Shown here: positions 6,159-40,393 of the stretch, in pieces | Numbering within the stretch: the first letter of the stretch is position 1 | Layout: the number at the start of each line of letters is the position of its first letter | Assembly: GCA_020073485.1 (NCBI GenBank) | Contig: JAIQFB010000001.1 | Span: 124,001 to 188,000 of the forward strand | Reading direction: 5' to 3' | DNA: 64,000 nucleotides | DNA from: Terriglobia bacterium | GTDB taxonomy: Bacteria > Acidobacteriota > Terriglobia > Acidiferrales > UBA7541 | Translations under genes and position numbers: made by a program | Notes under the pieces: model-generated | The model's input: the letters and a program-made list of their open reading frames with translations, nothing else | What the model was told of the DNA's origin: nothing | Database searches by the model: none

Positions 6159-7535
6159 GTGAAATTAGCGGTGATCGGATGCGGGTACGTGGGTCTGGTG
6201 TCGGGCAGCTGTCTGGCGGAGGCGGGGCATGAGGTGATCGCCACCGACAACGACGCCTCGAAAATCGCCACGTTGCAGGCCGGCAAAATTCCCATCTACG
6301 AACCCAGTCTGGACAAGGTGCTGGAGACCGTGGTGCGCGAAGGGCGCCTGCGATTCACCGCCAATGGCGGGGAAGCGGTGCGCGAGGCCGATGTGGTGTT
6401 TATCTGCGTGGGCACGCCTCCCACCGAATCCGGCGACGCGGATCTGTCCGCGATTGACAGCGTGGCGCGCATGATCGCGAAGGAATCGCGGACGCCGAAA
6501 TTGGTCATCGAGAAGAGCACAGTCCCGGCGCAGACGGGTTCGCAGTTAAAGCGCGCGCTGCAAGTCTACGCGACCAACGCAGGAGCGAAATTCCGCGTGG
6601 CATCCAACCCGGAATTCTTGCGCGAAGGCACGGCCGTCGAGGATTTTTTCCATCCGGACCGTATCGTCATCGGAGTCGAGGATAAAGAGAGCGAGCAGGA
6701 ATTGCGCGAAATCTACGCGCCGATTCTCCAGGGCAGGTTCCGCTGCCCGGTGCACCTGCCGAATTGTCCCCCCGCGCCCACGCCGGATTTCGTGGTCACC
6801 ACGATTGCCAGCGCGGAATTGATCAAGCACGCCTCCAATTCGTTTCTCGGCCTGAAGATTTCCTACGCCAATGTGCTGGCCGATTTGTGCGAACAGCTCG
6901 GTGGAAACGTCGAGGAAGTGACCCGAGCCGTGGGCCTCGATCCCCGCATCGGAGGACAGTTTTTGAAGGCCGGCCTCGGCTTCGGCGGATTTTGTTTGCC
7001 GAAGGATATCCAGGCGTTCATTTCCCTGGCCGAGCGCGCGGGCGTGGATTTCGGTTTACTCAAGGAAGCCGAACGCGTCAACCGCCAGCGCGTCGATCTC
7101 TTGCTCGACAAAGTAAAAAAAGCCCTGTGGGTCATGAAGGGAAAACAGATTGGAGTCCTCGGCATCGCCTTCAAGCCAAACACGGACGACATTCGCCTGG
7201 CCCCGGCCATCGAAGTGATCCGCCGGCTGCTCGCCGAAGGCGCCGTGGTCCGAGCCACCGATCCGGAAGCGATGGAGCGTGCGCGCGGCGTGTTTCCCGA
7301 TCTCGCCTACAGCACGGACCCCTACGAAGTGGCTCGCGGCGCTGACGCATTGCTGGTTCTCACCGAGTGGGAGCAGTTCCGCCGTCTGGACTGGAAGCGC
7401 GTGCGCAACGAGATGGCGCGTCCCTTGGTCGTGGACGGCCGGAACATGCTGCGTCCCGCCGAAATGAAAGCTCTGGGTTTTGAATATATGAGTTTCGGTA
7501 GGCCGGAAAAGGCCGTCGCGACCCCCGCCTCATGA
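6159..7535 (+). CDS. ugd: UDP-glucose 6-dehydrogenase (nucleotide-sugar dehydrogenase)
   Basis: 458 residues starting at GTG, with AGGAG 7 nt upstream. The NAD-binding GCGYVGLVSG is at the N-terminus. The catalytic cysteine is near residue 279 in GFGGFCLPKD, and the C-terminal domain has GIAFKPNTDDIR. The family oxidises UDP-Glc to UDP-GlcA with two NAD. The sequence resembles the Ugd/TuaD type more than WbpA/WecC, but a UDP-GlcNAc substrate cannot be excluded. That matters because the wlbA-like gene at 43472 needs an acidic UDP-sugar and no other dehydrogenase of this type is in the window. Confidence 0.92.
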   Translation: MKLAVIGCGYVGLVSGSCLAEAGHEVIATDNDASKIATLQAGKIPIYEPSLDKVLETVVREGRLRFTANGGEAVREADVVFICVGTPPTESGDADLSAIDSVARMIAKESRTPKLVIEKSTVPAQTGSQLKRALQVYATNAGAKFRVASNPEFLREGTAVEDFFHPDRIVIGVEDKESEQELREIYAPILQGRFRCPVHLPNCPPAPTPDFVVTTIASAELIKHASNSFLGLKISYANVLADLCEQLGGNVEEVTRAVGLDPRIGGQFLKAGLGFGGFCLPKDIQAFISLAERAGVDFGLLKEAERVNRQRVDLLLDKVKKALWVMKGKQIGVLGIAFKPNTDDIRLAPAIEVIRRLLAEGAVVRATDPEAMERARGVFPDLAYSTDPYEVARGADALLVLTEWEQFRRLDWKRVRNEMARPLVVDGRNMLRPAEMKALGFEYMSFGRPEKAVATPAS

Positions 7536-8025
7536 CCATTACTCGTCGCGGAACTCGGGGCTTTTCAAGGGTTTGCCATTTCGAAACTTTTCCCCTCGAA
7601 AATATGCCGACCTTTGGAAACGCAATAGAACAACGTTGCAATTCTTTTCCCTATTTACCGATGACCCTTATGAAGGGAGTTTCTTACGTCATTGGAATTC
7701 TGAGGATATTCTTCTAAGCTGCTTGTTTTGAACATGATGGACATATGCCAACTTCTGCTGCCTTCAGGAAACTAAAAACAGTCTGGCAGGCCGATTGCCT
7801 CTAAATCCGCGCGCTTTGATGTCTGGTTCTGTTTTCTGACAACCGGGTCGAAATTTGCGCCTTGAACGCCTGACATCGCAAATGTAAGTAAGTAAAAGAG
7901 TTAATAGAAAATTAGTCCAGAACCGCGCTGCACTTGGGACCGCACCAGTTTTGCGCTGTTCTCGTGATTTCCTGGATGTCACGGAGGGAAACCTCCCTGG
8001 CAAGGTGTCCCCGGCAGGAGCCCAA
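7536..8025. other. 490-nt intergenic region, no gene recognised
   Basis: Comparatively AT-rich for this window. A 61-codon open frame at 7532-7717 has no ribosome-binding site or family features and is not called. TTTGCG at 7854-7859 pairs with CGCAAA at 7877-7882, a weak dyad. The region must hold the promoter of the phosphoglycosyl transferase gene, but no convincing -35/-10 pair was found. Confidence 0.5.
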
Positions 8026-9213
8026 ATGGCAAACAGTTATTCGAGAATCGGATCTCCGGAAAACCAGCAATCGGCCAAACAGCCGGCTCCGAAGTATTCC
8101 GAACCGCGCGACTTTGGCATACTGCCCGCTCCCGACGAGACCGCAATTACCGAAGGCGTTTTTCATTCCTTGCTCACACATGAGCGCCGGCGCGCGGAAC
8201 GTTCCCGCAAGCCGTTCGTTCTGATGTTGCTCGATGCCAACTTGGAAGACGGCACCCCCGCGGAAATCTTGAAGAATGCCGTCGAGGTGGTTCTAGCCTC
8301 CAAGAGGGAGACCGACCTCGTCGGCTGGTACAAGCAGGAGCTCATCCTGGGTGTCATTTTCACGGAAGTCAGCGTCGAGGGAGACGTCCCCGTCACCGAA
8401 ACCCTGCGGGCTAAAATCGAGACCGCGCTGATTAAACATTTGGGGCGCGAGCCGGCCTCCAAAATCGCCATCTCCCTGCATTTGTTTCCCGAAAATTGGG
8501 ACAAGGATCACACCGGCTGGGTCGCTGATTCCAAGCTTTATCCGGACCTCAAGAGAAAGAGTTCGAGAAAACGGCTGCCTCTGGTGATCAAGCGCGTGAT
8601 GGACATTGCAGGCAGCGGAGCACTGCTCCTTGTATTGTCGCCTCTGCTCGCGGCCATTGCCGCCCTCATCAAGCTCACCTCCAAGGGGCCGGTGATCTAC
8701 GAACAGGAGCGCCTGGGTCAGCTTGGCGCGCGCTTCAAGTGCCTGAAGTTTCGAACGATGTACACCAACAACGACCCCAAGATTCACCAGGAATACGTCC
8801 AGCAATTTATTGCCGGCAAGGATGGGCTGGACAAATCTGAATCCAGCGAGAAGCCGGTATACAAACTCACCAATGACCCGCGCGTCACTTCCATCGGGCG
8901 TCTGCTGAGGAAGGCCAGCTTGGACGAACTTCCGCAATTCTGGAATGTTCTGCGAGGCGAAATGTCGCTGGTGGGCCCGCGTCCCCCGGTTCCCTACGAA
9001 TTCGAAGTCTATGACGTTTGGCACCGCCGCCGGGTTCTGGAAGTGAAGCCCGGAGTGACTGGGTTGTGGCAGGTGAGCGGGCGAAATCGCACGCTCTTCG
9101 ATGAAATGGTCCGCCTGGACCTGCGTTATTGCCGGAGTTGGTCGTTGTGGCTGGACGTCAAGATACTTTTCGCAACGCCCCGCGCGGTTTTCCACGGGGA
9201 TGGGGCTTGCTGA
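8026..9213 (+). CDS. Phosphoglycosyl transferase (bacterial sugar transferase) with N-terminal degenerate GGDEF-like domain
   Basis: 395 residues from the ATG at 8026, chosen because AGGAG ends 5 nt upstream; a frame extension to 7951 lacks such a site. Residues about 185-395 form the bacterial sugar transferase domain: KRVMDIAGSG followed by a hydrophobic segment, LGQLGARFKCLKFRTMY, DELPQFWNVLRGEMSLVGPR and GVTGLWQVSGRN. These enzymes move a sugar phosphate from UDP-sugar to undecaprenyl phosphate, the first step of repeat-unit assembly at the inner membrane. Residues about 35-160 (HERRRAERSRKPFVLMLLD, then RETDLVGWYKQELILGVIF) align by eye with a GGDEF domain whose GGDEF signature is replaced by YKQEL. 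Any regulatory role of that domain is inference. Confidence 0.9.
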   Translation: MANSYSRIGSPENQQSAKQPAPKYSEPRDFGILPAPDETAITEGVFHSLLTHERRRAERSRKPFVLMLLDANLEDGTPAEILKNAVEVVLASKRETDLVGWYKQELILGVIFTEVSVEGDVPVTETLRAKIETALIKHLGREPASKIAISLHLFPENWDKDHTGWVADSKLYPDLKRKSSRKRLPLVIKRVMDIAGSGALLLVLSPLLAAIAALIKLTSKGPVIYEQERLGQLGARFKCLKFRTMYTNNDPKIHQEYVQQFIAGKDGLDKSESSEKPVYKLTNDPRVTSIGRLLRKASLDELPQFWNVLRGEMSLVGPRPPVPYEFEVYDVWHRRRVLEVKPGVTGLWQVSGRNRTLFDEMVRLDLRYCRSWSLWLDVKILFATPRAVFHGDGAC

Positions 9214-9896: not shown

Positions 9897-10205
9897 GCTT
9901 GCCTCCGTTTCGGAGAAATAATCCCCAATCTCAGGTATCCGCAGGTCGCGATGAATCTGCCCTCGCGCGTTCACTCCGCGCGCCCATCATCTCTCAGGAA
10001 TGGTCTAGGAGCCAATACTACCGGAAATGTACGTCCCATCAAGCGAAGCATTCCACGATGCCTTCGAATCGATGGGTAAATCATCTGTGTTTTGCCGCCT
10101 TTTTGCGGCGAATGGATGGAAACACCCGGTCGCGTCCGCATTGAATCTGATATCTCATTCGGATATTCTTTTTTTCACTCGACGAAATTTGAGGAGGAAG
10201 GTCCG
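9897..10205. other. 309-nt divergent intergenic region between gmhA and the hexapeptide transferase
   Basis: Contains the ribosome-binding sites of both flanking genes (GGAGG for gmhA, GAGGAGGAAG for the transferase). No convincing promoter, repeat or RNA element was seen. In-frame extensions of gmhA (to 9974) and of the transferase (to 10092) run into it but lack homology. Confidence 0.5.
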
Positions 10206-10946
10206 ATGGAAATGGGAAAAATCAGCAAGCTGGCCGTGGTGGAAACCGACCGCATCGGATCCAACGTGACCATCGGCGAATTCAGCGTGGTCCGCAAGGG
10301 CGCCGTGCTGGGCGATGACGTCGTTATCCACCCTCATGTGGTCATCGAATCGGACGTCACCATCGGCAAAGGCACCGAGATTTTTCCCAGCACGTACATC
10401 GGCAAGGAACCCAAGGGCGCGGGCGCCACGGCGCGCAACCTGGATTTCATCCGTGAAGTCGCCATCGGTGAGCATTGCTGCGTCGGCCCCAATGCCGTGA
10501 TTTATTGCGACGTCCAAATCGGCGATTCCACGCTGGTCGGCGACGCCGCCTCGATCCGTGAAAAAAGCCGCGTCGGATCGAAATCCATCATCGGCCGTCA
10601 CGTCACGCTCAGCTACGTCTCCATCATCGGTTCCTACACCAAGATTCTCGACCACTGCACCATGGGCGGAAACGTCACCGTGGGGGATCACGTCTTCATC
10701 GGCACCGATACGCACACGGCCAACGACAATTCGTTCGGCGCCGAAGGCTGGAATGACGATATGATCGGCCCGACCATCAAGGATGGCGCCAACATCGGCG
10801 TGGGAGCTCTCCTTCTCCCCGGAGTCGTCATCGAAAAAGGAGTGCTGATCGGTGCAGGGTCGGTTGTTTACCGCAGCGTAAAAGAGGGTTTCGTGACCAT
10901 GGCCGCCGCGGCCCGCGAAATGCCGCGCCCCCCGAAAAAAGAGTAA
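10206..10946 (+). CDS. Left-handed beta-helix (hexapeptide repeat) acyltransferase, LpxA/LpxD-like
   Basis: 246 residues from the ATG at 10206, placed by a strong GAGGAGGAAG site; an upstream extension to 10092 is unlikely. From about residue 15 to 230 the protein is a run of [IV]GxxxxI hexads (SNVTIGEFSVV, AVLGDDVVIHPHVVIESDVT, and others), the left-handed beta-helix of acyl- and acetyltransferases. A loop with GTDTHTANDNS may carry the catalytic His. LpxA/LpxD relatives use acyl-ACP as donor. That is suggestive because an ACP gene lies 245 nt downstream on the same strand, followed by reductase and ligase genes. The sugar acceptor and acyl chain are unknown. Confidence 0.85.
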   Translation: MEMGKISKLAVVETDRIGSNVTIGEFSVVRKGAVLGDDVVIHPHVVIESDVTIGKGTEIFPSTYIGKEPKGAGATARNLDFIREVAIGEHCCVGPNAVIYCDVQIGDSTLVGDAASIREKSRVGSKSIIGRHVTLSYVSIIGSYTKILDHCTMGGNVTVGDHVFIGTDTHTANDNSFGAEGWNDDMIGPTIKDGANIGVGALLLPGVVIEKGVLIGAGSVVYRSVKEGFVTMAAAAREMPRPPKKE

Positions 10947-11191
10947 AAACAAGCCCTGGCCCCGGCCGTAAATCGCTTCGTCTGGAAATATCTAACCTCA
11001 TTGTATTGTTGTGCTTATCGACCATTACGAAGCAGGATTCCTTTTGATAACATGGCCCGATGAATACCTCGCCGCCCATGGCTCCTTCGCAGTTTACTAA
11101 TTCGAACCGGAGAATTTTGCCGCTCATCCCGCGATCCGTGCGGCGTGCTAGCATAAACAGGTAGCTCCAGCGAAACTTTAACTCAGGAGAA

Positions 11192-11458
11192 ATGTCCTTG
11201 CCGGCGAACACCATGAGCAACTTGGACACCTTGAAAAGCACGTTTGTGGATGTCATCGGCATCGACCCGGCAACGGATTTCAACAGCCTGGTGTACGGCA
11301 GCACGCCGGGCTGGGATAGCGTCGCGCACATGGCGCTGGTTGCGGCGATCGAAGGCGCATTCGACATCATGCTGCCCACCGACGACGTCATTGATATGAG
11401 CAGCTTCGCGAAAGCAAAGGAAATCGTCGCCAAGCACGGTGTCGCCCTTGATGCTTGA
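11192..11458 (+). CDS. Acyl carrier protein
   Basis: 88 residues. The phosphopantetheine attachment serine is Ser43 in GWDSVAHM, with the following helix ALVAAIEGAFDIMLPTDDV typical of carrier proteins. AGGAG lies only 2 nt before this ATG, so the start may instead be the ATG at 11213 (MSNLDTL), which gives a more usual 81 residues. The gene overlaps the reductase start by 8 nt, so the two are translationally coupled. The wording GWDSV rather than DSLD sets it apart from housekeeping AcpP and points to a dedicated carrier. It would hold acyl intermediates for the neighbouring reductase, ligase and hexapeptide transferase (inference). Confidence 0.88.
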   Translation: MSLPANTMSNLDTLKSTFVDVIGIDPATDFNSLVYGSTPGWDSVAHMALVAAIEGAFDIMLPTDDVIDMSSFAKAKEIVAKHGVALDA

Positions 11459-12194
11459 TGGCAAGGTGGCGTTTGTAACCGGATCGACCCGCGGGATCGG
11501 CTGGGCGACGGCGCGCACCTTCGCCTCGCAGGGCGCGGCGGTGATCGTCAACGGAGTCACTTCCCAGGAGCGCGTGGATAAGCGAGTCGAGGAAATCTGC
11601 ACGGAGTTCGGCGTCCCGTGCATTGGGTTTCTTTGCGACGTCTCGAATCCCGCCTGCGTCCGGTCCTGCTACGCGGAGATCTTCAAGAAATTCAAGCGGC
11701 TGGATGTGCTGGTGAATAACGCCGGCATCGTGCAGGACGCGCTGCTGGGCATGATTTCCGAGGCGTCCATCCGCCGGCAGATCGAGGTCAATACCATGGG
11801 CGCGATTTTTCACTTGCAGGAGGCCGCGCGCCTCATGCTGCGCAATCGCTCCGGCTCGATCATCAACGTCAGTTCGATCGTGGGACGCAATGGCAACGCG
11901 GGAGAGATTGTATACAGCGCATCCAAGGCCGCGCTGATCGGCCTCACCTACTCCGCGGCCAAGGAACTGGCGCCGAAAAATATTCGCGTGAATGCCGTGG
12001 CCCCGGGATTTATCGACACCGACCTGACCAAGGTTTTGCCCAAGGATGCGCACGCCGAATGGAGCAAGCGCGTCGGCCTGGGACGCATGGGCACCGCGCA
12101 AGAAGTGGCCAACACGATTTTGTTTCTAGCCTCGGACCAATCCAGCCACATTTCCGGACAAGTCGTGGGAGTAGACGGCTGCCTGGTTATCTGA
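11451..12194 (+). CDS. Short-chain dehydrogenase, 3-oxoacyl-ACP reductase (FabG) type
   Basis: 247 residues from the ATG at 11451, which overlaps the end of the ACP gene; a GTG at 11439 is an alternative. Motifs: TGSTRGIG (cofactor binding, residues 10-17), NNAG (89-92), Ser in INVSSIVG (141-142), Tyr155 and Lys159 in YSASK, and NAVAPGFIDTDLT. Length and motifs match FabG, which reduces 3-oxoacyl-ACP to 3-hydroxyacyl-ACP with NADPH. Its place directly after a dedicated ACP suggests it makes a 3-hydroxyacyl chain on that carrier. The ligase gene follows 9 nt downstream. Confidence 0.9.
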   Translation: MLDGKVAFVTGSTRGIGWATARTFASQGAAVIVNGVTSQERVDKRVEEICTEFGVPCIGFLCDVSNPACVRSCYAEIFKKFKRLDVLVNNAGIVQDALLGMISEASIRRQIEVNTMGAIFHLQEAARLMLRNRSGSIINVSSIVGRNGNAGEIVYSASKAALIGLTYSAAKELAPKNIRVNAVAPGFIDTDLTKVLPKDAHAEWSKRVGLGRMGTAQEVANTILFLASDQSSHISGQVVGVDGCLVI

Positions 12195-12203
12195 GCCGAT
12201 TCC

Positions 12204-13640
12204 ATGCTATTCGACACCGAACGCCAGCCCGCCCGCAGTCCCGCCATCTATGATGCCGCCCTGGGAAAATGGTGCACGTACGGGGAACTTCGCGAGTTGG
12301 TCGACCGCTTGGCCCATTCTCTTGATTATCCCCAAAAGGCGCTGACGTTTTGTTTCACCAGGAACGATCTCGCTTCCGTGGCCTGGTATCTGGCGGCAGT
12401 AGAGGCCGGGCATGCCGTCGCGCTGCTGGATGAAGGCCTCACCCGGGAATTCAAGGCCGCTCTGATTTCGTCCTACGCACCCGATTTTATCCTGACTTCA
12501 GTTGATACCACGGACTACGCAAGCGCCATCGAAGAACAGCCTGGCTACGACACTGCATCCACACCCGAGCCTCGGAATTATTTCTGGCGCCGCAAAGCCG
12601 TGCCGGAACAGACCGTGCATGCGGATTTGTCCGTGTTGCTTTCTACTTCCGGAAGCACGGGCAGCCCGAAATTCGTGCGCCTCTCCGGAAAAAATGTATT
12701 GAGCAACGCGCTGTCGATCAGCCAGGTGTTGGAAATCGGCGCGAACGACCGCGCCATCAGCAGCCTTCCATTTCACTACTCGTACGGCCTTTCGGTTCTG
12801 AATACCCACCTGCTGACGGGCGCAAGCGAAGTGATGACCAACGAAGGCCTGACCTCGCCCGCGTTCTGGAACGCGTTTCGCGAGGTGGAATGCACTTCCT
12901 TTGCTGGCGTCCCGTATTCGTATCAGATTATGAAACGCCTTGACGTCGACAAATTGAATCTTCCCAGCCTGCGCGTGATGACGCAGGCCGGAGGAAGGCT
13001 GCACAAGGATCTGGTGGCGCACTTTCATCAGGTGATGACCGCGCGCAACGGACGTTTCTACGTGATGTACGGACAGACGGAGGCCACCGCGCGCATCGCG
13101 ATTCTGCCTTCGCAATCTCTTCGCGAAAAACTTGGTTCGGCAGGACTGGCGATTCCGGGCGGATCGCTGGCCGTGCGGGTCGAAGGCCGCCTGACCACCG
13201 AGCCCAACCAGGCGGGCGAGCTGGTGTACACGGGACCGAACGTGATGATGGGATACGCGAACAGCCGGGAGGATCTGAGCCTGGGCGACGTCCTGGGCGG
13301 GACGCTCGAAACCGGCGACTCGGCGCACTTCGACGAGGAAGGTTTTATTTTCTTCGAGGGACGAATGAAGCGCGACGCCAAGGTGTTCGGTTTGCGCGTA
13401 AACCTGGACGAAGTCGAGAATCTGCTGCGCGTGCACGGCCCCACGGCTGTCGTCGCGGGCGGCGAAAATCTGCAGATTTATTGCGAGTATGGAGACCCCG
13501 AGGATTTCGCGCGCTACCGCCAGGACCTGGCGGCCAAGCTGCGCGTGCATCACAGCGCGTTCAAATTTCACCGCATCGAGCAGCTTCCGACCACGCCCAG
13601 CGGTAAAATCAACTATCCGGCGCTCACCGCCAAGACTTAA
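12204..13640 (+). CDS. AMP-dependent acyl-CoA/acyl-ACP synthetase (ANL superfamily)
   Basis: 478 residues. Adenylation motifs are intact: LLSTSGSTGSPKF (about 144-156), YGQTEATARI, the hinge-region FFEGRMKRDAKVFGLRV, and the C-terminal catalytic lysine in TPSGKINYP. It would activate a carboxylic acid with ATP to the acyl-AMP and pass it to a thiol, either CoA or the neighbouring ACP. It is somewhat shorter than a standard fatty acyl-CoA synthetase. The spacing (9 nt after the reductase, 7 nt before the LuxE-like gene) places it inside one operon. Substrate chain length cannot be read from the sequence. Confidence 0.88.
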   Translation: MLFDTERQPARSPAIYDAALGKWCTYGELRELVDRLAHSLDYPQKALTFCFTRNDLASVAWYLAAVEAGHAVALLDEGLTREFKAALISSYAPDFILTSVDTTDYASAIEEQPGYDTASTPEPRNYFWRRKAVPEQTVHADLSVLLSTSGSTGSPKFVRLSGKNVLSNALSISQVLEIGANDRAISSLPFHYSYGLSVLNTHLLTGASEVMTNEGLTSPAFWNAFREVECTSFAGVPYSYQIMKRLDVDKLNLPSLRVMTQAGGRLHKDLVAHFHQVMTARNGRFYVMYGQTEATARIAILPSQSLREKLGSAGLAIPGGSLAVRVEGRLTTEPNQAGELVYTGPNVMMGYANSREDLSLGDVLGGTLETGDSAHFDEEGFIFFEGRMKRDAKVFGLRVNLDEVENLLRVHGPTAVVAGGENLQIYCEYGDPEDFARYRQDLAAKLRVHHSAFKFHRIEQLPTTPSGKINYPALTAKT

Positions 13641-13647
13641 AAAAGTT

Positions 13648-14727
13648 ATGAAATTCGACGACCTGCTCAAACTGCCCCAATATTCTCTGCCTTACGCGGA
13701 GAAGGAACAGATTCTGCTCGACGGGCTGAACGAACTGGACGAGCACCACCGGCGCAATTGCCCCGAATACAACCGCCTGGTGTCCGTCCTCTGGCCGGAC
13801 TACCGCAAAGCGCGAACGCTTGCCGAGCTACCGTATCTGGCCGTGGGGCTTTTCAAGAGCCACCGCCTGTGCAGCATCCCGAAGGAAAAAATTTTCAAGA
13901 CCCTCACCTCCAGCGGAACCACCGGGCAGGCCGTCAGCCAGATTTTTCTGGATGTGGAAACCGCGCAGCGGCAGAGCGCCTCGCTCAGCCGCATCATGAC
14001 GCACGTCCTGGGGCCGAACCGGCTTCCCATGATCCTGGTCGAAAGCAGCGCTCTGCTGAAAGACCGCACGCGCTTCAGCGCGCGCGCCGCGGGTGTGCTC
14101 GGCATGATGACCTTCGGCCGCGACCATTTCTACGCGCTCGATGAGAAAATGGATCTGGACGAAAAGGGCCTGCACGCCTTCCTGGAAAAAGTAAACGGCA
14201 AACCCTTCTTCATGTTCGGCTTCACCTTCATGATCTGGCAATACCTGTACCAGCGCATCGCCGACCGCAGCGTGGACCTCTCGCAGGGAATTCTGGTGCA
14301 CGGCGGGGGTTGGAAAAAGCTGCAGGAATTGGCCGTCAGCAACGACGAATTCAAACGGCGGCTGCGCGAGAAAACGGGGCTCTCGCGAATTTACAATTTT
14401 TACGGCCTGGTCGAGCAGGTGGGAAGCATCTATGTGGAAGGGGACAACGGCTATCTGTTCGCGCCGAATTACGCGGACGTGATCGTGCGCGATCCCCTTA
14501 CCTGGGAGCCCGCGCCGATGGGCACACCCGGAGTCCTGCAAGTGCTCAGTCTGCTGCCGCTCAGCTATCCCGGACATTCGGTCCTGACTGAGGACCTGGG
14601 AATTATTCACGGTATCGACGATTCCGCGGGCGGGCGCTACGGCAAATATTTTTCCGTGCTGGGAAGGATTCCGAAGGCGGAATTGCGGGGCTGCAGCGAC
14701 GTGCATGCCAGCCAGGTGAGCGGATGA
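13648..14727 (+). CDS. LuxE-family acyl-protein synthetase
   Basis: 359 residues from the ATG at 13648; an in-frame extension into the ligase gene was rejected. It starts MKFDDLLKLPQYSLPYAEKE and has the ATP-binding TLTSSGTTGQAVSQ motif at about residues 86-99. FGFTFMIWQYLYQ and YNFYGLVEQVGSIY follow. This is the LuxE/acyl-protein synthetase family, which adenylates a fatty acid and hands the acyl group to LuxC. No luciferase or LuxD gene is nearby, so bioluminescence is not implied. The stop codon overlaps the LuxC-like start by 4 nt (ATGA), which suggests strict co-production. Confidence 0.87.
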   Translation: MKFDDLLKLPQYSLPYAEKEQILLDGLNELDEHHRRNCPEYNRLVSVLWPDYRKARTLAELPYLAVGLFKSHRLCSIPKEKIFKTLTSSGTTGQAVSQIFLDVETAQRQSASLSRIMTHVLGPNRLPMILVESSALLKDRTRFSARAAGVLGMMTFGRDHFYALDEKMDLDEKGLHAFLEKVNGKPFFMFGFTFMIWQYLYQRIADRSVDLSQGILVHGGGWKKLQELAVSNDEFKRRLREKTGLSRIYNFYGLVEQVGSIYVEGDNGYLFAPNYADVIVRDPLTWEPAPMGTPGVLQVLSLLPLSYPGHSVLTEDLGIIHGIDDSAGGRYGKYFSVLGRIPKAELRGCSDVHASQVSG

Positions 14728-15953
14728 AAGTCCAGCAGCTGGTGCCGCGCGCCGAGGAAGTGGTGCTCGAGGAGATCCTCGCCGGGCTGCGGGACATCTC
14801 CGGCGGCACGCTCTCTCCGCTGGCGCCGGAAATTCTGGAATTTTGCGCGAATTTTTCGCGCGCGCTGTTCAAGGACGCCGAGGCCAAGCGCTTCCCCGAG
14901 TTGCAGGCGCTGGCATTCTGGATGCGCAAGTCGGAACTTGAGCGTCTGCGCCAGGAATTCGACCGCCTGAATACCAAAAGTACTCTGCCGGTGCCGCGCG
15001 GCCTGGTGTTTCACGTTCCTCCCGCCAACGTGGATACGATTTTCATGTATTCCTGGATCATGTCCGTCCTGGTCGGCAACCGCAACATCCTGCGCATTTC
15101 GCCGCGGGCCGCGCAGCAGACCACGATCATTTGCCGGGTATTTAACGACTGCCTGGAGGCGGCCGGGGAGATCATGCGCCGCAATACGGTGATGATCCGT
15201 TACGGCCATGAGCAGGAAATTACCGCCGCGATTTCCGCCGTCGCCGATGTGCGAGTGATCTGGGGCGGAGACGCTTCCGTGAACAATATCCGGGCCGTGC
15301 GCATCCCTCCGCATTGCAAGGAGCTTGCGTTTCCGGACCGCTACTCGCTGTCGGTGGTGCGCACGTCGAATTATCTGGCGCTCGACGAAACCAAACGCAA
15401 GGACGTGGCCGCGCAATTTTATAATGACACCTACTGGTTCGACCAAATGGCGTGTTCCTCCCCCCGGCTGCTGGTCTGGTGCGGCAGCAAGGAGGAGAGT
15501 TCCAAGGCCAGCGCGATTTTCCTGCGCGACTTGCATGAGGAAGTGCAGCGCAGAGGCTACGCGCTGGACGCTTCCGGCAGCATGAACAAGTTCACATTCT
15601 TGTCGCGGGCGATTCTGGACCAGCCGGTGGTCTCGGCGCAGCAAGTGGACAATCAATTGACGGTCGCGCAGCTGGAGAACATCCGCCATCTGGACCGCGA
15701 TCATTGCGGCGGAGGATTCCTGTTCCAGTACTATGCCGAGGGGATCGAGGTTCTGGCCCAATGCGTCGCCCGCAAGGACCAGACGCTCACCTATTTCGGA
15801 TTTGAGCCTTCGGAAATGGCCGCCCTCGCACAATTGCTCAACGGCCGCGGGATCGACCGAATCGTGCCCATGGGCAAGGCCCTGACATTCAATCGCTACT
15901 GGGACGGGTACGATCTGTTGGCGGAGATGATTCGCCACGTGTACGTGGAGTAG
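14724..15953 (+). CDS. LuxC-family acyl-CoA/acyl-protein reductase
   Basis: 409 residues. The family cysteine that carries the acyl group is Cys244 in DQMACSSPR. Upstream are RGLVFHVPPANVDTIFMYSW and GNRNILRISPRAA, matching the NADPH-binding half of LuxC. LuxC reduces an acyl thioester to the aldehyde. Together with the LuxE-like protein it would form a fatty-acid reductase, here tied to a carrier protein, ketoreductase and ligase rather than luciferase. It is the last gene of the (+) cassette and is followed by two hairpins at 16098-16142. Confidence 0.88.
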   Translation: MKVQQLVPRAEEVVLEEILAGLRDISGGTLSPLAPEILEFCANFSRALFKDAEAKRFPELQALAFWMRKSELERLRQEFDRLNTKSTLPVPRGLVFHVPPANVDTIFMYSWIMSVLVGNRNILRISPRAAQQTTIICRVFNDCLEAAGEIMRRNTVMIRYGHEQEITAAISAVADVRVIWGGDASVNNIRAVRIPPHCKELAFPDRYSLSVVRTSNYLALDETKRKDVAAQFYNDTYWFDQMACSSPRLLVWCGSKEESSKASAIFLRDLHEEVQRRGYALDASGSMNKFTFLSRAILDQPVVSAQQVDNQLTVAQLENIRHLDRDHCGGGFLFQYYAEGIEVLAQCVARKDQTLTYFGFEPSEMAALAQLLNGRGIDRIVPMGKALTFNRYWDGYDLLAEMIRHVYVE

Positions 15954-16279: not shown

Positions 16280-17215
16280 TTATCGCTTCAGCTTTTTTGC
16301 CGTCTTCACGCCGTAGTGTCCGCCGGAGTAATAGGAGCCGTACTCCGAGCTTTCGTCCGCGGTGTTCAGGACGACGCCAAGGACCTGAGAGTCCTGAAAT
16401 TCGCGGCAGGCTTTGCGAGCCATGTCCGAGGGCGTGGAGCTTGCCCGGACGACCAGCAGGACCCCATCGCACAATCCGCCCAGCACGGTTGCGTCGGCCA
16501 CCGGCAGCACGGGCGAGGAGTCGATGATGATCCAATCGAATTCCGGCTTGACGCGGTCCATGAATTCCTTCATGTGGCTGCTGGAAATCAATTCCGACGG
16601 GTGCGTGACGTGAGTTCCCGCGGGCGTGAAATAGAGCCCTTCTTCATGGCCTTTTTGAATTACCTCGAATTCCGAGGCACCGCCCTGCAAGTAATCCGCG
16701 AGTCCGGGGTTGGAGGGGGCGCCCAGCAGCGTGTGAACGCGCGGGGCGCGCAAATCCGCGTCGATGAGCAGGACGCGGCAGCCCTGTTGTCGAACCAGGG
16801 CGTGAGCCAGGTTGGTGGCCACCATCGTTTTGCCTTCGGCGGGGACGGCGCTGGAAATCAGCACGGTCTGCAGCGGCTGGTTTTCCCGGATGCGGGAAAG
16901 ACGGGAGCGCAGCGTACGAAATTGTTCGGTCCCGGGATAGAACGGGTCCGCGTTGGCGAACACCAGAAAAGCGGGATCGGGTTTCCAGTTGGGCTGGGCG
17001 CACCTGGCCAGAAAACCATCGGGGCGCACAGGCTCGGGAAGGGTTTCGACCGCGGCAGCGGTGGCCGCAGCCGGCACAACGTTGGGACGCGCCGGTTCCG
17101 GCTGCTTCTCCTGCTTCGGCGCCGGGACCTCGGCCAGCTCTTCGGGCTTCTGGCCGTTGTGGCCCGATGTCTTTTCCTGCTCCGCTCTTTTCAGTGCTTC
17201 GTGGATCCTGCTCAT
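16280..17215 (-). CDS. Bacterial tyrosine (BY) kinase, CpsD/CapB type
   Basis: 311 residues. Walker A is SSAVPAEGKTMVATNLA (Lys129; AEGKT replaces the common GEGKT). Walker A' is VLLIDADLR (148-156) and Walker B is WIIIDSSP (228-235). The C-terminus has a tyrosine cluster, YGSYYSGGHYG, the autophosphorylation site of BY-kinases. The N-terminus MSRIHEALKRAEQEK and a Pro/Ala linker resemble CpsD-type kinases of exosortase-associated EPS clusters. It would act at the inner membrane with the GNVR protein encoded 46 nt upstream, controlling polymer length and export by phosphorylation cycles. It is the last gene of the (-) series. Confidence 0.92.
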   Translation of the reverse strand: MSRIHEALKRAEQEKTSGHNGQKPEELAEVPAPKQEKQPEPARPNVVPAAATAAAVETLPEPVRPDGFLARCAQPNWKPDPAFLVFANADPFYPGTEQFRTLRSRLSRIRENQPLQTVLISSAVPAEGKTMVATNLAHALVRQQGCRVLLIDADLRAPRVHTLLGAPSNPGLADYLQGGASEFEVIQKGHEEGLYFTPAGTHVTHPSELISSSHMKEFMDRVKPEFDWIIIDSSPVLPVADATVLGGLCDGVLLVVRASSTPSDMARKACREFQDSQVLGVVLNTADESSEYGSYYSGGHYGVKTAKKLKR

Positions 17216-17261
17216 GATTCCCTTTCCTTACTGAACAAAGCCTAATGAATTTGGACGAGCC

Positions 17262-18779
17262 TTAAGCCCTGGCAGCCGCTCGCGGGCGTTGAGGACCCAC
17301 AAGGGAAGGCCGCGTATCCTTCTTGCCCTGATCTTTCGAAATCACGGGGATCATCGCCAGAACCGGCAAGTGCAGAGCCGCTTCGACGTCGCGTTCCGAG
17401 CGCATCGAAGTGTCCTGCATTTCCAGCAGGAGCGTTAAGCCGAGTCCCAGCGCCAAACCCGCGGCAAAGCCTCCCCCCGCGAAAACCGGAACCTTGGGGA
17501 AGGAGGGCTGGTTGGGAAGATTGGCCGGGTCGAGGACCTGGAACTGTTCGCCCTGCTGGCTTTGTTCCAGGTTCATGGCCATGGCCGATTGATCGCGTTT
17601 CTTCAGCAAATCGTTGTAGAAATCGAGCGCCGTCTGATGATCGCGGGTGACCAGTTTGTATTCCTGTTCGACCGCCGGGCTGGCTTGCACGCGCGCCTGG
17701 TAGAGCTTGATTTGCGCCTGAATGTCGGTCTGCTGCTGCGTGCGTTCCTTGATCACCTGGTCGTATTGATGAATCTGGGCTCGCAACTGTTGGATCTGAG
17801 CCGGTTCGGAAACGGGCTTGGCGGTCTTATCCATTCCCGCGGGTTTTTCGTCCTGATTCTCTTCGGCGATTTTCTTTCGCATCGTCGCGATGTCGTTCTT
17901 GGCCTTGATCACATCCGGATGATCGTTGGTATATTTCGATTGCAGAGTGGTCAACTGGGCTTCGAGCGCGGCCAGCTGCTGCTCGAGCGTTTCCGGATTC
18001 TGCCCGCTTTGCGTGGCCTGCCAGGCCGCTATTTGTTGCGCCAGCTGCGATTCCGCGAAGCTCTTATCCTGTTGCGCGCGGCTCAGCGCCTGCGTGGAAG
18101 CTTCCAGCTGCGGCGTCAGACCGGCCAGCAAGTTCAAGTTCGTCTGCGCTTCATCGGGAAGGATGCCCAGGTTCTTGCGTTGAAACGCCGCGAGCCTGGC
18201 GTCCTGTTCGTCCAACTTGGCTTTCGCTTCGTCGAGCTGTTTTCCCAGAAATTCGTTGGTCTGGATCGTTTGGCCCTGGCGGCTCTGAACGTTTTCCTCC
18301 AGGAACATGTTGGTGATCCGCGCGCAAATCGCCTGGGCCATATGCGGATCGTTGAATACGACGCTGATATAAAAGCCCGGAAGGTTCTGGGCGCGGGTCT
18401 CGGCCATGGGTTGCACCGGTGTAATGGTGACCGCCGATCGCAACCTTTCGACCAGGGCATCCATCGGCACCGAATCGATATCTTTGGCGTACAGGCCGAA
18501 TTGTTGGATCACCGGTTCCAGGCGGGACCTGCTCAGAATCTGCTGCTGCATCGCGGCCAATCTCTGATTGCTGTTGTCCGAAACGACCGGCGTGACCAAC
18601 GACGGGGAAACCGTGGGCGCCTGCACCAGCACCAAAGTCTGGGACGTGAACCGCTTTGGCAGCACGTGCGACGCGAAGAATCCGGCCGCGCCGCCGGCCA
18701 CGGCCAGCAAAGCGATCAAATACCATCGCCGCCGCAGAATGGAGATCACGTCACTCGGTTTTATGTCCTGATGTAGCAT
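17262..18779 (-). CDS. GNVR/Wzz-type polysaccharide chain-length determinant
   Basis: 505 residues. TM1 is about residues 19-40 (RWYLIALLAVAGGAAGFFAS) and TM2 about 440-465 (VFAGGGFAAGLALGLGLTLL). Between them is a long coiled-coil periplasmic domain rich in Gln/Ala/Glu, ending in SFPKVPVF before TM2, as in Wzz/GNVR proteins. It would be an inner-membrane polysaccharide co-polymerase that sets chain length and partners the BY-kinase encoded just downstream. The ribosome-binding site is in AAGGTGAGC. Two hairpins stand immediately upstream (18803-18839). Confidence 0.92.
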   Translation of the reverse strand: MLHQDIKPSDVISILRRRWYLIALLAVAGGAAGFFASHVLPKRFTSQTLVLVQAPTVSPSLVTPVVSDNSNQRLAAMQQQILSRSRLEPVIQQFGLYAKDIDSVPMDALVERLRSAVTITPVQPMAETRAQNLPGFYISVVFNDPHMAQAICARITNMFLEENVQSRQGQTIQTNEFLGKQLDEAKAKLDEQDARLAAFQRKNLGILPDEAQTNLNLLAGLTPQLEASTQALSRAQQDKSFAESQLAQQIAAWQATQSGQNPETLEQQLAALEAQLTTLQSKYTNDHPDVIKAKNDIATMRKKIAEENQDEKPAGMDKTAKPVSEPAQIQQLRAQIHQYDQVIKERTQQQTDIQAQIKLYQARVQASPAVEQEYKLVTRDHQTALDFYNDLLKKRDQSAMAMNLEQSQQGEQFQVLDPANLPNQPSFPKVPVFAGGGFAAGLALGLGLTLLLEMQDTSMRSERDVEAALHLPVLAMIPVISKDQGKKDTRPSLVGPQRPRAAARA

Positions 18780-24634: not shown

Positions 24635-26140
24635 CTATACCTTGACGGCAACTTCCTCGCTTTTCGCTTCGTGTTTCGCGGCCGAGGATTCGACCGCCTC
24701 AGGTTCCCGGGAGGCCATGAATTCCCGCCAGATCACGATGAGGCTGGGGATGCCCACGGCAAAGGCGAACGCCAGCGCGACCGGGGTCCGGTAACCGGCG
24801 AACCGCGTGGCAGGCATGAGCCGAACGATGAACGCGGCAGCCAGCGCGCCAAGCATCATTTGCTTGTTGCGCGGCGTCCAGACCAGATGAACCTCCCGGC
24901 GAATGGTGATCCATACCGCCAGGTAGTAAATAAAGTAGCTGGCCAGAAATCCGATGCCCAGGCCGGGCAGCCCCAGCCAGCGCACCGCAAGCCAGGTGGT
25001 TACAATCGTGGCCACGCCGCCAATCGATTCCATTAGGAAATAGACCGAACTCTTGCACCGTGCCAGGACGGCGAACGACATCGTCCAGCTGGAAAACTTG
25101 AACAAGTCGCCGATCAACTGCCACTCCAGAATTTCCACCGTGGGGGTGAACTTGTTGGAATACACCAGAGGGATAAGCACGGGCAACAGTGCCAGCATCC
25201 CCAGAATCATGGGGACACCGAGGAGCATGACCAGGCGGTGCTGTTCGTTGATGAGCTTGACCAGTTCCTTGGGTTTGTCGGCGACCGCGGAAAGACGCGG
25301 ATAATAATCCTGGCCCATGGCCGTCACCAGGAATCCCAGATAGCCAACGGAAATGGCCGTCGCCGCTTTGTAATAACCTACGCTTTCCGGATTGAGCAGG
25401 TGCACCACGACCATCGGAAGGGCGAGCTGCACGCCGGCTCCGACCAGAGAGCTGGCCGTGAACGGAGCCCCGAACCGGAGAAGGTCCCACGCGGATTTGA
25501 CCGCTTCCGCACGCGAGGGTTTCGCCTTCACCGTCCCGAGTTCCCGGTGGATGAAATACCGCGAGGCGGCGTAGGTCAGCACGGCTCCTGCAATAATCGC
25601 GGGAACCACGCCGCGGGTTTGCCAGAGGATCACGGCGCAGATGGTGATCAGCGATGCGAACAGGGTGTTGATGATGCCGTATTTCGCAAGCGAAGTGACG
25701 CGATGATAGGCGTTGAGAATTCCAATCTGAACGTTTCCGGCGATGGTGAACAGCAGGGCGACGCCCATGGCCACGATGGTCCAGCCGTGATCCGGGGTGC
25801 CGAGCGCCCAGCGGCTCAGCCCGACGCGGAAGATCGTCAGCGCCGCCATGGCGATGATTGCCACTCCGGCGAACAAGACCCATGCGCCGCCCCTCAGATT
25901 GGCGATGGCCTGTTCGTCATTGCGTTTGGCCGCGCCCGCACCGAGGCGCACCAGGCCCGTGGCCATGCCCAGCCCCGCGATCAACGTGGTCAGTCCCACG
26001 AAGCTTTGCAGCAAGCCGTAATACCCGTACCCGGATGGTTGCAGGTAGAGGGCGAGGACCTTCGCCGACACCATCCCCAGGATGATGCTGATGATGGAAC
26101 TCCCGCTTAAAATCGCGGTCGCGCGGAAAATCGACTTCAT
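24635..26140 (-). CDS. Lipid-linked oligosaccharide flippase (Wzx/MATE-like)
   Basis: 501 residues, almost entirely hydrophobic, with about 12-14 transmembrane segments. It starts [20 protein letters not shown] and continues [20 protein letters not shown], the typical opening of the polysaccharide biosynthesis/Wzx family (PF01943-like). The C-terminus is a charged tail after the last membrane segment. It would flip undecaprenyl-linked repeat units to the periplasm. Its start overlaps the end of the fdtB-like gene by 4 nt (ATGA). Confidence 0.9.
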
Positions 26141-27297
26141 GCCCTGAACTCCTGTATGGCCCGGATGACGGTCGCGGCTTGTGATTCGGACAGATGCGGA
26201 CCGATCGGCAGGCTCAAAACTTCTTCGTGAATGCGCTCGGAAATCGGCAGGCTGCCCGGCCGCATGGCCATGTCCTTATAGGCGTTCTGTAGGTGCGGAG
26301 GGATGGGATAGTGGATGAGCGCGCCGATGCCGGATTTTTCCAGATGCTGGCGCAGCGCGTCCCGCCGTTTCGACCGCACGACGAATAGATGATGCACCGG
26401 GTCCGCCCACTCCGGAACGTAGGGAAGAACCAGCCCGGAATGTGCAAGCCCTTCGTGATACTGCGCGGCGATCGCGCGCCTGCGGGCGTTCCAATTGTCC
26501 AGGCGCCGGAGCTTTACGCGAAGAATGGCGGCCTGGATTTCGTCGAGGCGGCTGTTGACGCCTTTGACCTCGTTCAGGTACTTGATGCGCGACCCGTAAT
26601 TCCGCAGGACGCGAACGCGGTCGGCCAGGTCGTCGCTGTTGGTGGTGACGGCTCCGCCGTCGCCCAGCGCGCCCAGATTTTTCCCGGGATAAAAACTCCA
26701 TCCGGCGATGTTTCCCAGTCCGCCCGTGCGCTTTCCTTTGTAGCGCGCGCCGTGGGCCTGCGCGGCGTCCTCCAGAATCCACAAATCGTGTTTCGCCGCG
26801 ATTTCCTTGATCCGGCCGATGTCCGCGGGCTGCCCGTAGAGATGGACGGGGAGAATTCCCTTCGTGTGTTTCGTGATAGCCGCTTCGATTTTTTCCGGAT
26901 CGATGTTGTAGGTACGCTCGTCCGGCTCGACCGGCACGGGGCGCGCGCCGCAATAGCTGACCGCGAGCCAGGTGGCGATGTACGTGTTGCCCGGCACGAT
27001 CACTTCGTCCCCGGCGCGAACGCCAAGGGCTTTCAGCGACAGCACCAGCGCGTCGAGTCCGTTGCCGACGCCGATGCAGTGCTTGACTCCGGCATACTCG
27101 GCAAACTCGCTCTCAAAGGCTTCGAGTTCCTTGCCCAGCAGGTAGTAGCCGCTGTCGAGCACGCGAGCGACGGCCGAGTCGATCTCCTCGCGGAGCTCGC
27201 ACGTGGCTGCCTGCAAGTCCAAAAACGGAACGTTACTTTTGATTTCGGAAGGCTTTGAGGAAGGCCTTGTAACTTCGGTAGTAGTCCGATTCGTCAT
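26137..27297 (-). CDS. fdtB: DegT/DnrJ/EryC1-family sugar aminotransferase, FdtB/QdtB-like
   Basis: 386 residues. The N-terminal [45 protein letters not shown] and the PLP-lysine motif [16 protein letters not shown] are all present. Its partner upstream is an FdtA-like ketoisomerase, which points to a dTDP-3-keto-6-deoxyhexose 3-aminotransferase (FdtB/QdtB type). The start codon lies inside the fdtA-like gene (65-nt overlap), with GGAGG placed immediately before it, so the overlap appears genuine. No matching FdtC-type N-acetyltransferase was identified next to it. Confidence 0.88.
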
Positions 27298-38613: not shown

Positions 38614-39525
38614 TTATTTCCAGATCGATTCCCGGAATGTCAGGCGGCGAAGCTGCTGGCTGCGCACGTAGCGAATCAGTTCCGGGTCGTCCACGGTCCT
38701 GATCTTGTTCCAGTAGCCGTAGAGGTAGCCGTACGCCAGGCCGACGGCGGCCACGAAGTAGGGCTTCTGCGGCACGCGCTTTACGCACTTCAGCAGCATG
38801 AAGAGCGGATGGTAGCCGGTGATGTAATTCGCGCGGCCGTTCTTCACATAATCTTTCCACACGCCGTCGTTCGAGCCCGTGGCGCGGCGCTGCAGCACGG
38901 GTATATGCGAGAAGCTGCGCGTATGCCAGCCCAGCATGTTGGCTTTCGCTTCGTCGAGAGTGTCCCAGCCGGGAGCGGGGAATAATCCCCCGAGGCCTTC
39001 CCAACAATCGCGGCGGTAGATTTTCGTCGCCCCGCGCACGTGAAACGCGGGATTGGATTCGATCTCGCGCTCGCCGTTCGCCAGGTTGTAGACCGTGCCG
39101 CCACCCACTCCGAGCTTGGGATCGGCCGAGAATTCCGCCAGGCAGCGCTCGAAATAATTTGATTCCAGGACCAGATCGGCGTCCAGCTTGACGATGAAAT
39201 CCCAATCCGTCACGGCCAGGGCGCGGTAGCCGTCCAGAACGGCTTCAACCACGCCGCCGCCGGGATGCCGGAATCCGCGGTCCTTGCGGTGCACGACCTT
39301 GAGCCAGGGAATCTGCTGCGCGAAGCGGTCGAGGATCGCGCCGGTATCGTCGGTCGAGCCGTCATCCACAATCACCCATGCGGCCGGGCGCACCGTCTGC
39401 TGCAGGACGCTGTGAATGGTCTGCTTGATTTCCGAGCCTTCATTTCGAGCCGGTGTGATGACCACGTACCGGCCGACGCTGGCGTCGGCGCCAATCGATC
39501 CGCTCTGCACGCTAGCGAGACTCAA
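38614..39525 (-). CDS. Glycosyltransferase family 2
   Basis: 303 residues. YVVITPARNEGSEIKQTIHS, WVIVDDGSTDDTGAILDRF and DFIVKLDADLVLESNYFERC (D-A-D metal motif) mark a GT2 catalytic domain. The C-terminal part has GWHTRSFSHIPVLQRRATGS. It adds a sugar to the growing lipid-linked unit. Its start lies within the end of the deacetylase gene (14-nt overlap), so translation is probably coupled. Confidence 0.9.
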   Translation of the reverse strand: MSLASVQSGSIGADASVGRYVVITPARNEGSEIKQTIHSVLQQTVRPAAWVIVDDGSTDDTGAILDRFAQQIPWLKVVHRKDRGFRHPGGGVVEAVLDGYRALAVTDWDFIVKLDADLVLESNYFERCLAEFSADPKLGVGGGTVYNLANGEREIESNPAFHVRGATKIYRRDCWEGLGGLFPAPGWDTLDEAKANMLGWHTRSFSHIPVLQRRATGSNDGVWKDYVKNGRANYITGYHPLFMLLKCVKRVPQKPYFVAAVGLAYGYLYGYWNKIRTVDDPELIRYVRSQQLRRLTFRESIWK

Positions 39526-40393
39526 TGGGTTGCCCCTGCTCCTGCCAGAATTTCTTCGTCATTTTGAACAGGTATTGCGGCTTGTGCAGCCAGTCGTAAC
39601 CGCCTTCGAGCTTGGCCTCAAGGAAGCGAAGATCGTCGAACGAATTGACCGGAAGGCGCGGCATAAAGAACCAGTCATCGTCGGGCCGTGCCGTGCCGAT
39701 GATCGTGCACACGCCGTTTTCATAACCGTGCGTCTGCAGCAGTTCCCGCAGGTGCGAGGTGAATTTCTTATCGTCCTCGGGAAACGCGTACGGGTAGGCG
39801 AAGGATTGAATGGCTTCGCCCAGTTCGTCCTCGATGGTCTCCTTCGATTGCCGGACTTCGTACTCGACTTGATTCGGGCCTAGCTTGTAAAGCTCCGGAT
39901 GGTTTACCGTATGCGAGCCGATTTGAATCCCGCGGGCGTGAATCTCGCGCACTTCCGCCCAGGTCATGTACTCCTTGCCGTCGGCGCACACGGTTTCGTT
40001 GGCGGTGAGGCCCGAGACGATGAACATGGTCGCCTTGAAATTGTATTCGGCGAGGATCGGGAAGGCGTGCGTGTAGAAATCGCGAAACCCGTCGTCAAAC
40101 GTGATGACCACGCGCTTTTCGCTGTTGCGCCCGGTCATCATGGCTTCCAGCGCTTCGTGCAGGTTCACGGTGGTGTAACCGTTTTCGTGCAGGAATTTCA
40201 TGTGCGCGGCGAAGCGTTCCTGGCTGGTGTTGGTCTCGTAATACGGATGCCGCCCTGCGACTTCGGATTGCATTCCGTGATACATCAGGATCGGAACGCG
40301 CGGGGCGCGCTGCCTGCGCAACATGTGCGAAAACGGGTGAATCAGGCCGATGCTGATGGCGCGGTCCAGTCGAAAGCTGGTCATGGTGCTCAT
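39512..40393 (-). CDS. Polysaccharide deacetylase (NodB/CE4 domain)
   Basis: 293 residues. VPILMYHGM, VVITFDDGFRDFYTHAFPIL (the TFDDG metal motif), GIQIGSHTVNHPEL (HxxxH) and SFAYPYAFPEDDKKF (the arginine/proline-motif region) define a complete NodB domain. It would remove acetyl groups from N-acetylated sugars. No signal peptide is obvious; a short hydrophobic patch near residues 13-24 may associate with the membrane. The start overlaps the GT4 gene by 4 nt. Confidence 0.92.
   Translation of the reverse strand: MSTMTSFRLDRAISIGLIHPFSHMLRRQRAPRVPILMYHGMQSEVAGRHPYYETNTSQERFAAHMKFLHENGYTTVNLHEALEAMMTGRNSEKRVVITFDDGFRDFYTHAFPILAEYNFKATMFIVSGLTANETVCADGKEYMTWAEVREIHARGIQIGSHTVNHPELYKLGPNQVEYEVRQSKETIEDELGEAIQSFAYPYAFPEDDKKFTSHLRELLQTHGYENGVCTIIGTARPDDDWFFMPRLPVNSFDDLRFLEAKLEGGYDWLHKPQYLFKMTKKFWQEQGQPIESR

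Follow-up and report, generated by a model that had tools for sequence, protein, structure and literature searches.

Why should a bacterium carry, within an exopolysaccharide (EPS) locus, relatives of the LuxE–LuxC pair of luminous bacteria? The question is raised by a 64,000-nucleotide stretch from a soil-living Terriglobia bacterium (phylum Acidobacteriota; assembly GCA_020073485.1, contig JAIQFB010000001.1, positions 124,001 to 188,000) – referred to here as the window, position 1 being its first letter. In it, genes for an acyl carrier protein (ACP), a FabG-like short-chain dehydrogenase/reductase (SDR), an AMP-forming acyl ligase, a LuxE-like acyl-protein synthetase and a LuxC-like acyl reductase follow one another in this order on one strand, downstream of a gene for a hexapeptide-repeat acyltransferase. 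We consider the chances about even that these five genes – the cassette – and the hexapeptide protein form a module that supplies an acyl group for a surface glycan, through carboxyl reduction, loading onto ACP and transfer to an amino sugar. A surface glycan is proposed because the gene set is conserved and glycan families lie near most of its loci, and an amino-sugar acceptor because two aminotransferases and a deacetylase are encoded at the window locus.

The gene set, its spread and its proteins

A LuxE alignment was scanned against 84,980 species genomes, and at least 586 stretches with a LuxE relative were confirmed. Eighty loci with the closest LuxE relatives were chosen, 70 of them with a callable LuxE gene; fractions over these 70 describe only close relatives of the window LuxE, and some of the loci lie on short contigs. 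The exact order ACP–SDR–ligase–LuxE–LuxC is found at half of them (35/70), and most of the others retain ligase–LuxE–LuxC, with ACP and SDR close by. Within 9 kb of LuxE, at least one tested glycan family is present at 53 of the 70 loci, a DegT aminotransferase at 29, a NeuB homologue at 16 and a candidate acyltransferase – PglD-like, with a hexapeptide motif, or of the GNAT type – at 34. The background for DegT proteins is low, as the whole 5.05 Mb genome has only four of full length, two of them in the EPS locus. The five genes are found together again across many phyla, so their grouping is not due to chance. A preliminary description of the window had proposed a pathway dedicated to an acyl or aldehyde-derived group of unusual kind, meant for the surface glycan or a lipid, and had singled out beforehand conservation as a unit beside glycan genes as the point on which the proposal should stand or fall. 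Such conservation is what we find, and a pathway of this sort for a surface glycan agrees well with it; the combination itself is not new.

In the window's own phylum the cassette is rare. A LuxC relative at 1e-5 was detected in five of 89 genomes of its family, the relative being close in three (identity 100, 92 and 61%, window included), and a sample of the phylum gave four positive genomes out of 396, again with the window included. In a LuxE tree the window groups with other Acidobacteriota, and the labels of ten phyla take 14 changes against a minimum of 9 – some mixing, yet not random scatter.

The wider set of loci also holds several variants. A protein of the metallo-beta-lactamase fold, which could be a thioesterase, stands beside ACP or ligase at four loci (L076 7862-8596, L084 9098-9895, L088 and L133 12706-13413). 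One Oscillospiraceae locus (L096 2359-3539 and 9998-11055) has two LuxE–LuxC pairs on opposite strands, one of them beside a transketolase pair. On a conjugative Salmonella plasmid (L134 10668-16426), an acyl-protein synthase and an AMP-binding protein with a LuxC-like part stand in a run with a phenylacetate-CoA ligase family protein and a GNAT acetyltransferase, flanked at both ends by transposase/recombinase genes.

The window cassette is tightly packed, with overlaps of 8 nt between ACP and SDR and of 4 nt between LuxE and LuxC, and with 9 and 7 nt separating the other genes. The open reading frames (ORFs), all on the plus strand, agree exactly with the order and spacing given in the preliminary description, and the key residues that it had called intact – Ser43 of ACP, Cys244 of LuxC and the TPSGK motif of the ligase – were all found. 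Cys244 is invariant in an alignment of 27 LuxC proteins and aligns with a cysteine of the solved LuxC 7xc6, which is also the top fold match in the PDB for the AlphaFold model of the LuxC-like protein (pLDDT 93.3). The LuxE-like protein matches the LuxE of 7xc6 at 2.1e-17, and its Cys349, in the conserved motif RGCSD, aligns with the GCS cysteine of the solved LuxE. The ACP falls just short of its Pfam cut-off (20.0 vs 20.8 bits), but 18 ACPs from such loci all keep the motif WDSxxHM around the serine of attachment; by their alignment the window protein probably starts at 11213.

These enzymes are far from those of light organs: the equivalog cut-offs are missed by LuxC with 39.2 vs 750 bits and by LuxE with 66.3 vs 550 bits, so a long-chain aldehyde is not implied. 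Protein family scans of the window revealed no LuxA, LuxB or LuxD adjoining the cassette, and a luminescence reading was dropped on both grounds. The absence of luciferase claimed earlier thus holds for the neighbourhood; elsewhere in the genome there is one PF00296 protein, from a broad family. The SDR lies under the FabG equivalog cut-off TIGR01830 (257.4 vs 297.75 bits), and the ligase weakly resembles many ligases, amino acid adenylation domains among them, reaching no model cut-off. A weak match of the ligase to the exosortase-associated ligase model TIGR03098 was also seen.

The hexapeptide gene does precede the cassette, as had been described, but at a distance of 245 nt, outside the tight packing. 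The top solved relative of its product is QdtC, a dTDP-3-amino-sugar N-acetyltransferase (64 bits), followed by the LpxA of H. pylori (52 bits). No NCBIfam cut-off is reached, the score against the LpxA equivalog TIGR01852 being 87.6 vs 231.05 bits, and in one pairwise alignment the catalytic-histidine stretch of LpxA (AHDCVIG in H. pylori) falls on SYVSIIG, which is free of histidine. By these comparisons the earlier label 'LpxA-type' appears doubtful. Of the 89 family genomes, three encode the protein (ACYLTRANSFERASE), and these are the very three that have a close LuxC, a co-occurrence with a Fisher value of 8.8e-6 when kinship between genomes is ignored. In the most distant of the three, the hexapeptide gene stops about 150 bp short of a contig end, and ligase, LuxE and LuxC are on another contig that starts inside the SDR gene, as expected of one operon broken by assembly. 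A single-sequence structure prediction of the hexapeptide protein was discarded (pLDDT 41.6).

A proposed route, its precedent and its rivals

In the proposed route, LuxE would use ATP to activate a carboxyl group of a small acid and hand it over to Cys244 of LuxC, which would reduce it to an aldehyde; the SDR would turn the aldehyde into an alcohol. The ligase would then load the resulting hydroxy acid, through the carboxyl that it still has, onto the dedicated ACP, and the hexapeptide acyltransferase would pass the acyl group to the amino group of an amino sugar. A likely but putative class of product would be short acyl groups with several hydroxyls, dihydroxybutanoyl for one, made for instance from malate: L-malate reduced at C4 is exactly 2,4-dihydroxybutanoate. 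The enzyme families, active-site residues, gene set and glycan context are observed; the order of steps, substrate, product and acceptor are what we infer. The 3-hydroxyacyl chain suggested in the preliminary description is less favoured, since the set has no ketosynthase and LuxE and LuxC would be left idle.

A product of this kind is known from V. cholerae O1, in which perosamine is acylated with 3-deoxy-L-glycero-tetronate (2,4-dihydroxybutanoate) and the genes concerned are VC0248-VC0252 (PMC3441752). Their annotation comprises RfbL, an iron-containing alcohol dehydrogenase, the acyl protein synthase/acyl-CoA reductase RfbN and an acetyltransferase (PMC9201469). By annotation, the enzyme kinds of wbeK-wbeO – ligase, alcohol-forming dehydrogenase, acyl-protein synthase/acyl reductase and acyltransferase – are those of the window; the V. 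cholerae product acylates an amino sugar, as is proposed for that of the window. The two systems differ insofar as the LuxE- and LuxC-like parts are annotated as one protein in V. cholerae but form two in the window, where an SDR would take the place of the iron alcohol dehydrogenase. The original tetronate pathway paper is reportedly that of Morona and colleagues, published in Gene in 1995.

An arrangement of the same kinds as in V. cholerae O1, but in a different setting, was found at four Vibrionaceae loci (Table 1), at which an AMP ligase, an iron alcohol dehydrogenase and an 825-residue LuxE–LuxC fusion follow in order; at three of the four an ACP gene was called ahead of them. At these loci the dehydrogenase therefore occupies the SDR's place beside LuxC. 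The window LuxE is nearer to the Vibrionaceae fusion (176 bits) than to light-organ LuxE (66.7 bits). Matches in 228 genomes of a Vibrio-type genus were confined to these four loci and three cassettes with separate genes (L131 5380-17656, L132 8140-16175 and L133 8954-16965), which include an IlvB-like thiamine pyrophosphate (TPP) enzyme, a FabA-like protein of 157 residues and a NeuB homologue. The latter three partly resemble the Shewanella flagellin genes sfmABCDE, which encode a NeuB-like protein, a TPP enzyme and an SDR (PMC3765264); as neither LuxC nor LuxE is among them, they were rejected as a precedent.

A broader version of the proposal – that the cassette serves bacteria at large as a module making dihydroxybutanoyl-like acyl groups, with carboxylate reduction along a route similar to tetronate synthesis in V. 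cholerae – is tentative and rather unlikely. If true, it would predict such groups in the glycans of hundreds of species, the window's EPS included, and explain a 102 Da unit in Aeromonas AH-3. Although at least 586 genome stretches hold the set, the literature calls it 'fatty acid synthesis'; seen as a relative in kind of the tetronate genes, it can be assigned a definite candidate product and mass, open to testing, in place of a loose guess.

The Aeromonas unit ends the flagellin glycan of A. piscicola AH-3 and is unidentified, and the glycosylation island of this strain carries the five genes (PMC7874193). With the known residues subtracted, 102.05 Da of the 1491.5 Da are left over, on published numbers of low precision. 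A dihydroxybutanoyl residue, C4H6O3 (102.03 Da), is compatible with this value, as are C5H10O2 (102.07 Da) and other formulas. Because the published deletion left the cassette intact (PMC7874193), the connection is a lead, not evidence. A 376 Da pseudaminic derivative, in which one acetyl would be swapped for C4H6O3 (376.15), fits by mass and was given no weight.

Several other products or targets have to be weighed. Both papers that list the genes guessed at a liposugar from homology (PMC7874193, PMC4875605), the set making a chain derived from a fatty acid or fatty aldehyde for a lipid-bearing sugar, and the LuxC and LuxE of luminous bacteria do use long-chain acids. Given the distance of the window pair from the light-organ cut-offs, a set that contains neither ketosynthase nor thioesterase, and the C4 group made by the V. 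cholerae relative in kind, we regard this as rather unlikely. The aldehyde might alternatively be extended, by a TPP enzyme or a NeuB-type aldolase, to an unusual sugar or polyhydroxy acid. TPP enzymes take aldehydes as acceptors, so the three Vibrionaceae variants with separate genes may extend the LuxC product in this way, and a pair of transketolase N and C halves lies near the cassette at 11 of the 70 loci and also on Rhizobium plasmids. Chain extension is nonetheless distinctly unlikely for the window, whose set, like most cassettes of the exact order, has no TPP enzyme.

Whether the module serves flagellin, its position in the EPS locus being incidental, is a question raised by the described cassettes themselves, which sit in flagellin glycosylation islands (PMC7874193, PMC4875605); pseudaminic-acid-type genes occur at many loci, and the window's genome has a flagellin gene. 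We consider this unlikely: the flagellin locus is on a separate contig, where a scan of ten neighbouring genes turned up no glycosylation gene, and the cassette is surrounded by Wzz, Wzx and O-antigen ligase-type genes. From position only, EPS is the more likely acceptor, and the EPS of its own locus the most likely target of the module. LuxE/LuxC pairs also occur outside luminescence, GriC and GriD of grixazone biosynthesis being LuxC/LuxE-like, and the ligase's resemblance to amino acid adenylation domains could suit a similar reduction of aryl or amino-acid substrates on the way to a small molecule. That is very improbable: core genes of secondary metabolism are not beside the set, the glycan context is repeated over the loci, and no open-access paper on GriC/GriD was found under the terms tried.

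Other observations weigh against an acyl-group module for the surface glycan, or against parts of it. At 17 of the 70 loci, some on short contigs, none of the tested glycan families is present, and the acyltransferase is not kept across cassettes. The two acid activators, LuxE and the ligase, could serve two different acids. Identity between the Vibrionaceae proteins and those of the window is low (ligase 24%, ACP 26%, LuxE 31%, LuxC 26%), so the tie to them is taken as an analogy of enzyme kinds, not as orthology, and in the 228 genomes searched neither a V. cholerae O1 locus nor an O1-type perosamine setting was recognised. The genome is flagellated, hence flagellin could be the target, and no assay of any enzyme from such cassettes was found in the literature.

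The surrounding EPS locus

The neighbouring genes support the earlier placement of the set inside an EPS locus (Table 1). Upstream, on the strand of the cassette, lie a nucleotide-sugar dehydrogenase and a sugar transferase, the latter separated from the hexapeptide gene by a SIS-domain gene on the opposite strand (9285-9974). The long EPS locus downstream, also on the opposite strand, encodes a CpsD-type ATPase, Wzz, FemAB-type proteins, a pyruvyl transferase, a methyltransferase, a Wzx-type flippase, two DegT aminotransferases, glycosyltransferases, an O-antigen ligase-type protein and a deacetylase. A congener keeps the same layout, with 87-98% protein identity in the flanking EPS genes.

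Two of the proteins in the locus are of the FemAB/Acetyltransf_6 type (20550-21659 and 30929-32125, both on the minus strand), a type often found in exosortase-type EPS clusters. An ORF of 2345 aa (46201-53238, plus strand) comes right after the EPS genes.

Table 1. Features of the window and of related loci (window coordinates unless a locus is named)
Feature	Position	Strand	Remarks
Hexapeptide-repeat (left-handed beta-helix) acyltransferase, 246 aa	10206..10946	+	Pfam Hexapep 9.4e-32
ACP	11192..11458, start probably 11213	+	phosphopantetheine Ser43 in GWDSVAHM
FabG-like SDR, 247 aa	11451..12194	+	adh_short_C2 5.6e-65
AMP-forming acyl ligase, 478 aa	12204..13640	+	AMP-binding 6.6e-47
LuxE-like acyl-protein synthetase, 359 aa	13648..14727	+	PF04443 1.1e-50
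LuxC-like acyl reductase, 409 aa	14724..15953	+	PF05893 7.1e-30
UDP-glucose/GDP-mannose dehydrogenase	6159..7535	+	context gene
Polysaccharide sugar transferase, possible EPS initiating transferase	7951..9213	+	PF02397
ParA/CpsD-type ATPase (AAA_31) and Wzz/GNVR chain-length protein	16280..18779	-	context genes
DegT/DnrJ/EryC1 aminotransferase, source of amino sugar	26137..27297	-	context gene
Polysaccharide deacetylase, could expose free amino groups	39512..40393	-	context gene
Second DegT aminotransferase	41767..42981	-	context gene
Vibrionaceae fusion loci	L127 5391-10674; L128 5094-10354; L129 5092-10115; L130 6468-11729		nonulosonate-type genes alongside
Split transketolase (N and C halves)	L066, L085, L086, L088, L093, L096 and five more loci; L009 8282-10106		beside cassette

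Relation to known systems

The gene combination has already been described, and the window is a further member in a new setting, an EPS locus. Aeromonas Group II flagellin glycosylation islands contain genes for ACP, 3-oxoacyl-ACP reductase, AMP-dependent synthetase, luxE and luxC (PMC7874193). Compared by gene description only, orf1-orf2-orf3-luxE-luxC matches the window in its five gene kinds and their listed order, with sugar genes adjoining; it differs in belonging to a flagellin island with pseudaminic acid genes, whereas the window set is accompanied by a hexapeptide acyltransferase and stands in an EPS locus. In enterobacteria, flagellin glycosylation islands of some 70-80 strains encode Acp, LuxE, LuxC, CaiC and FabG (PMC4875605); these five families are those of the window, but glycan and location differ. 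Unlike these published cases, the window cassette lies outside any flagellin glycosylation island; because it stands in an EPS locus and the flagellin genes are on another contig, we file it with the cassette at large, not with the flagellin islands.

With the LuxC–LuxE of luminous bacteria (7xc6) the window pair shares folds, catalytic cysteines and the pairing of two proteins, but neither the company of LuxD, LuxA and LuxB nor anything near the light-organ scores. A cassette on a plasmid of Deinococcus sp. NW-56 (L007), itself in an EPS setting, has the window's five-gene order, with 47-61% identity, and is flanked by a sugar transferase on one side and a PglD-like acetyltransferase on the other. 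Its acyltransferase, of the PglD type, follows LuxC, whereas the window's hexapeptide protein precedes ACP. Together, the Acidobacteriota EPS locus and the Deinococcus case show that the module has no fixed link with flagella.

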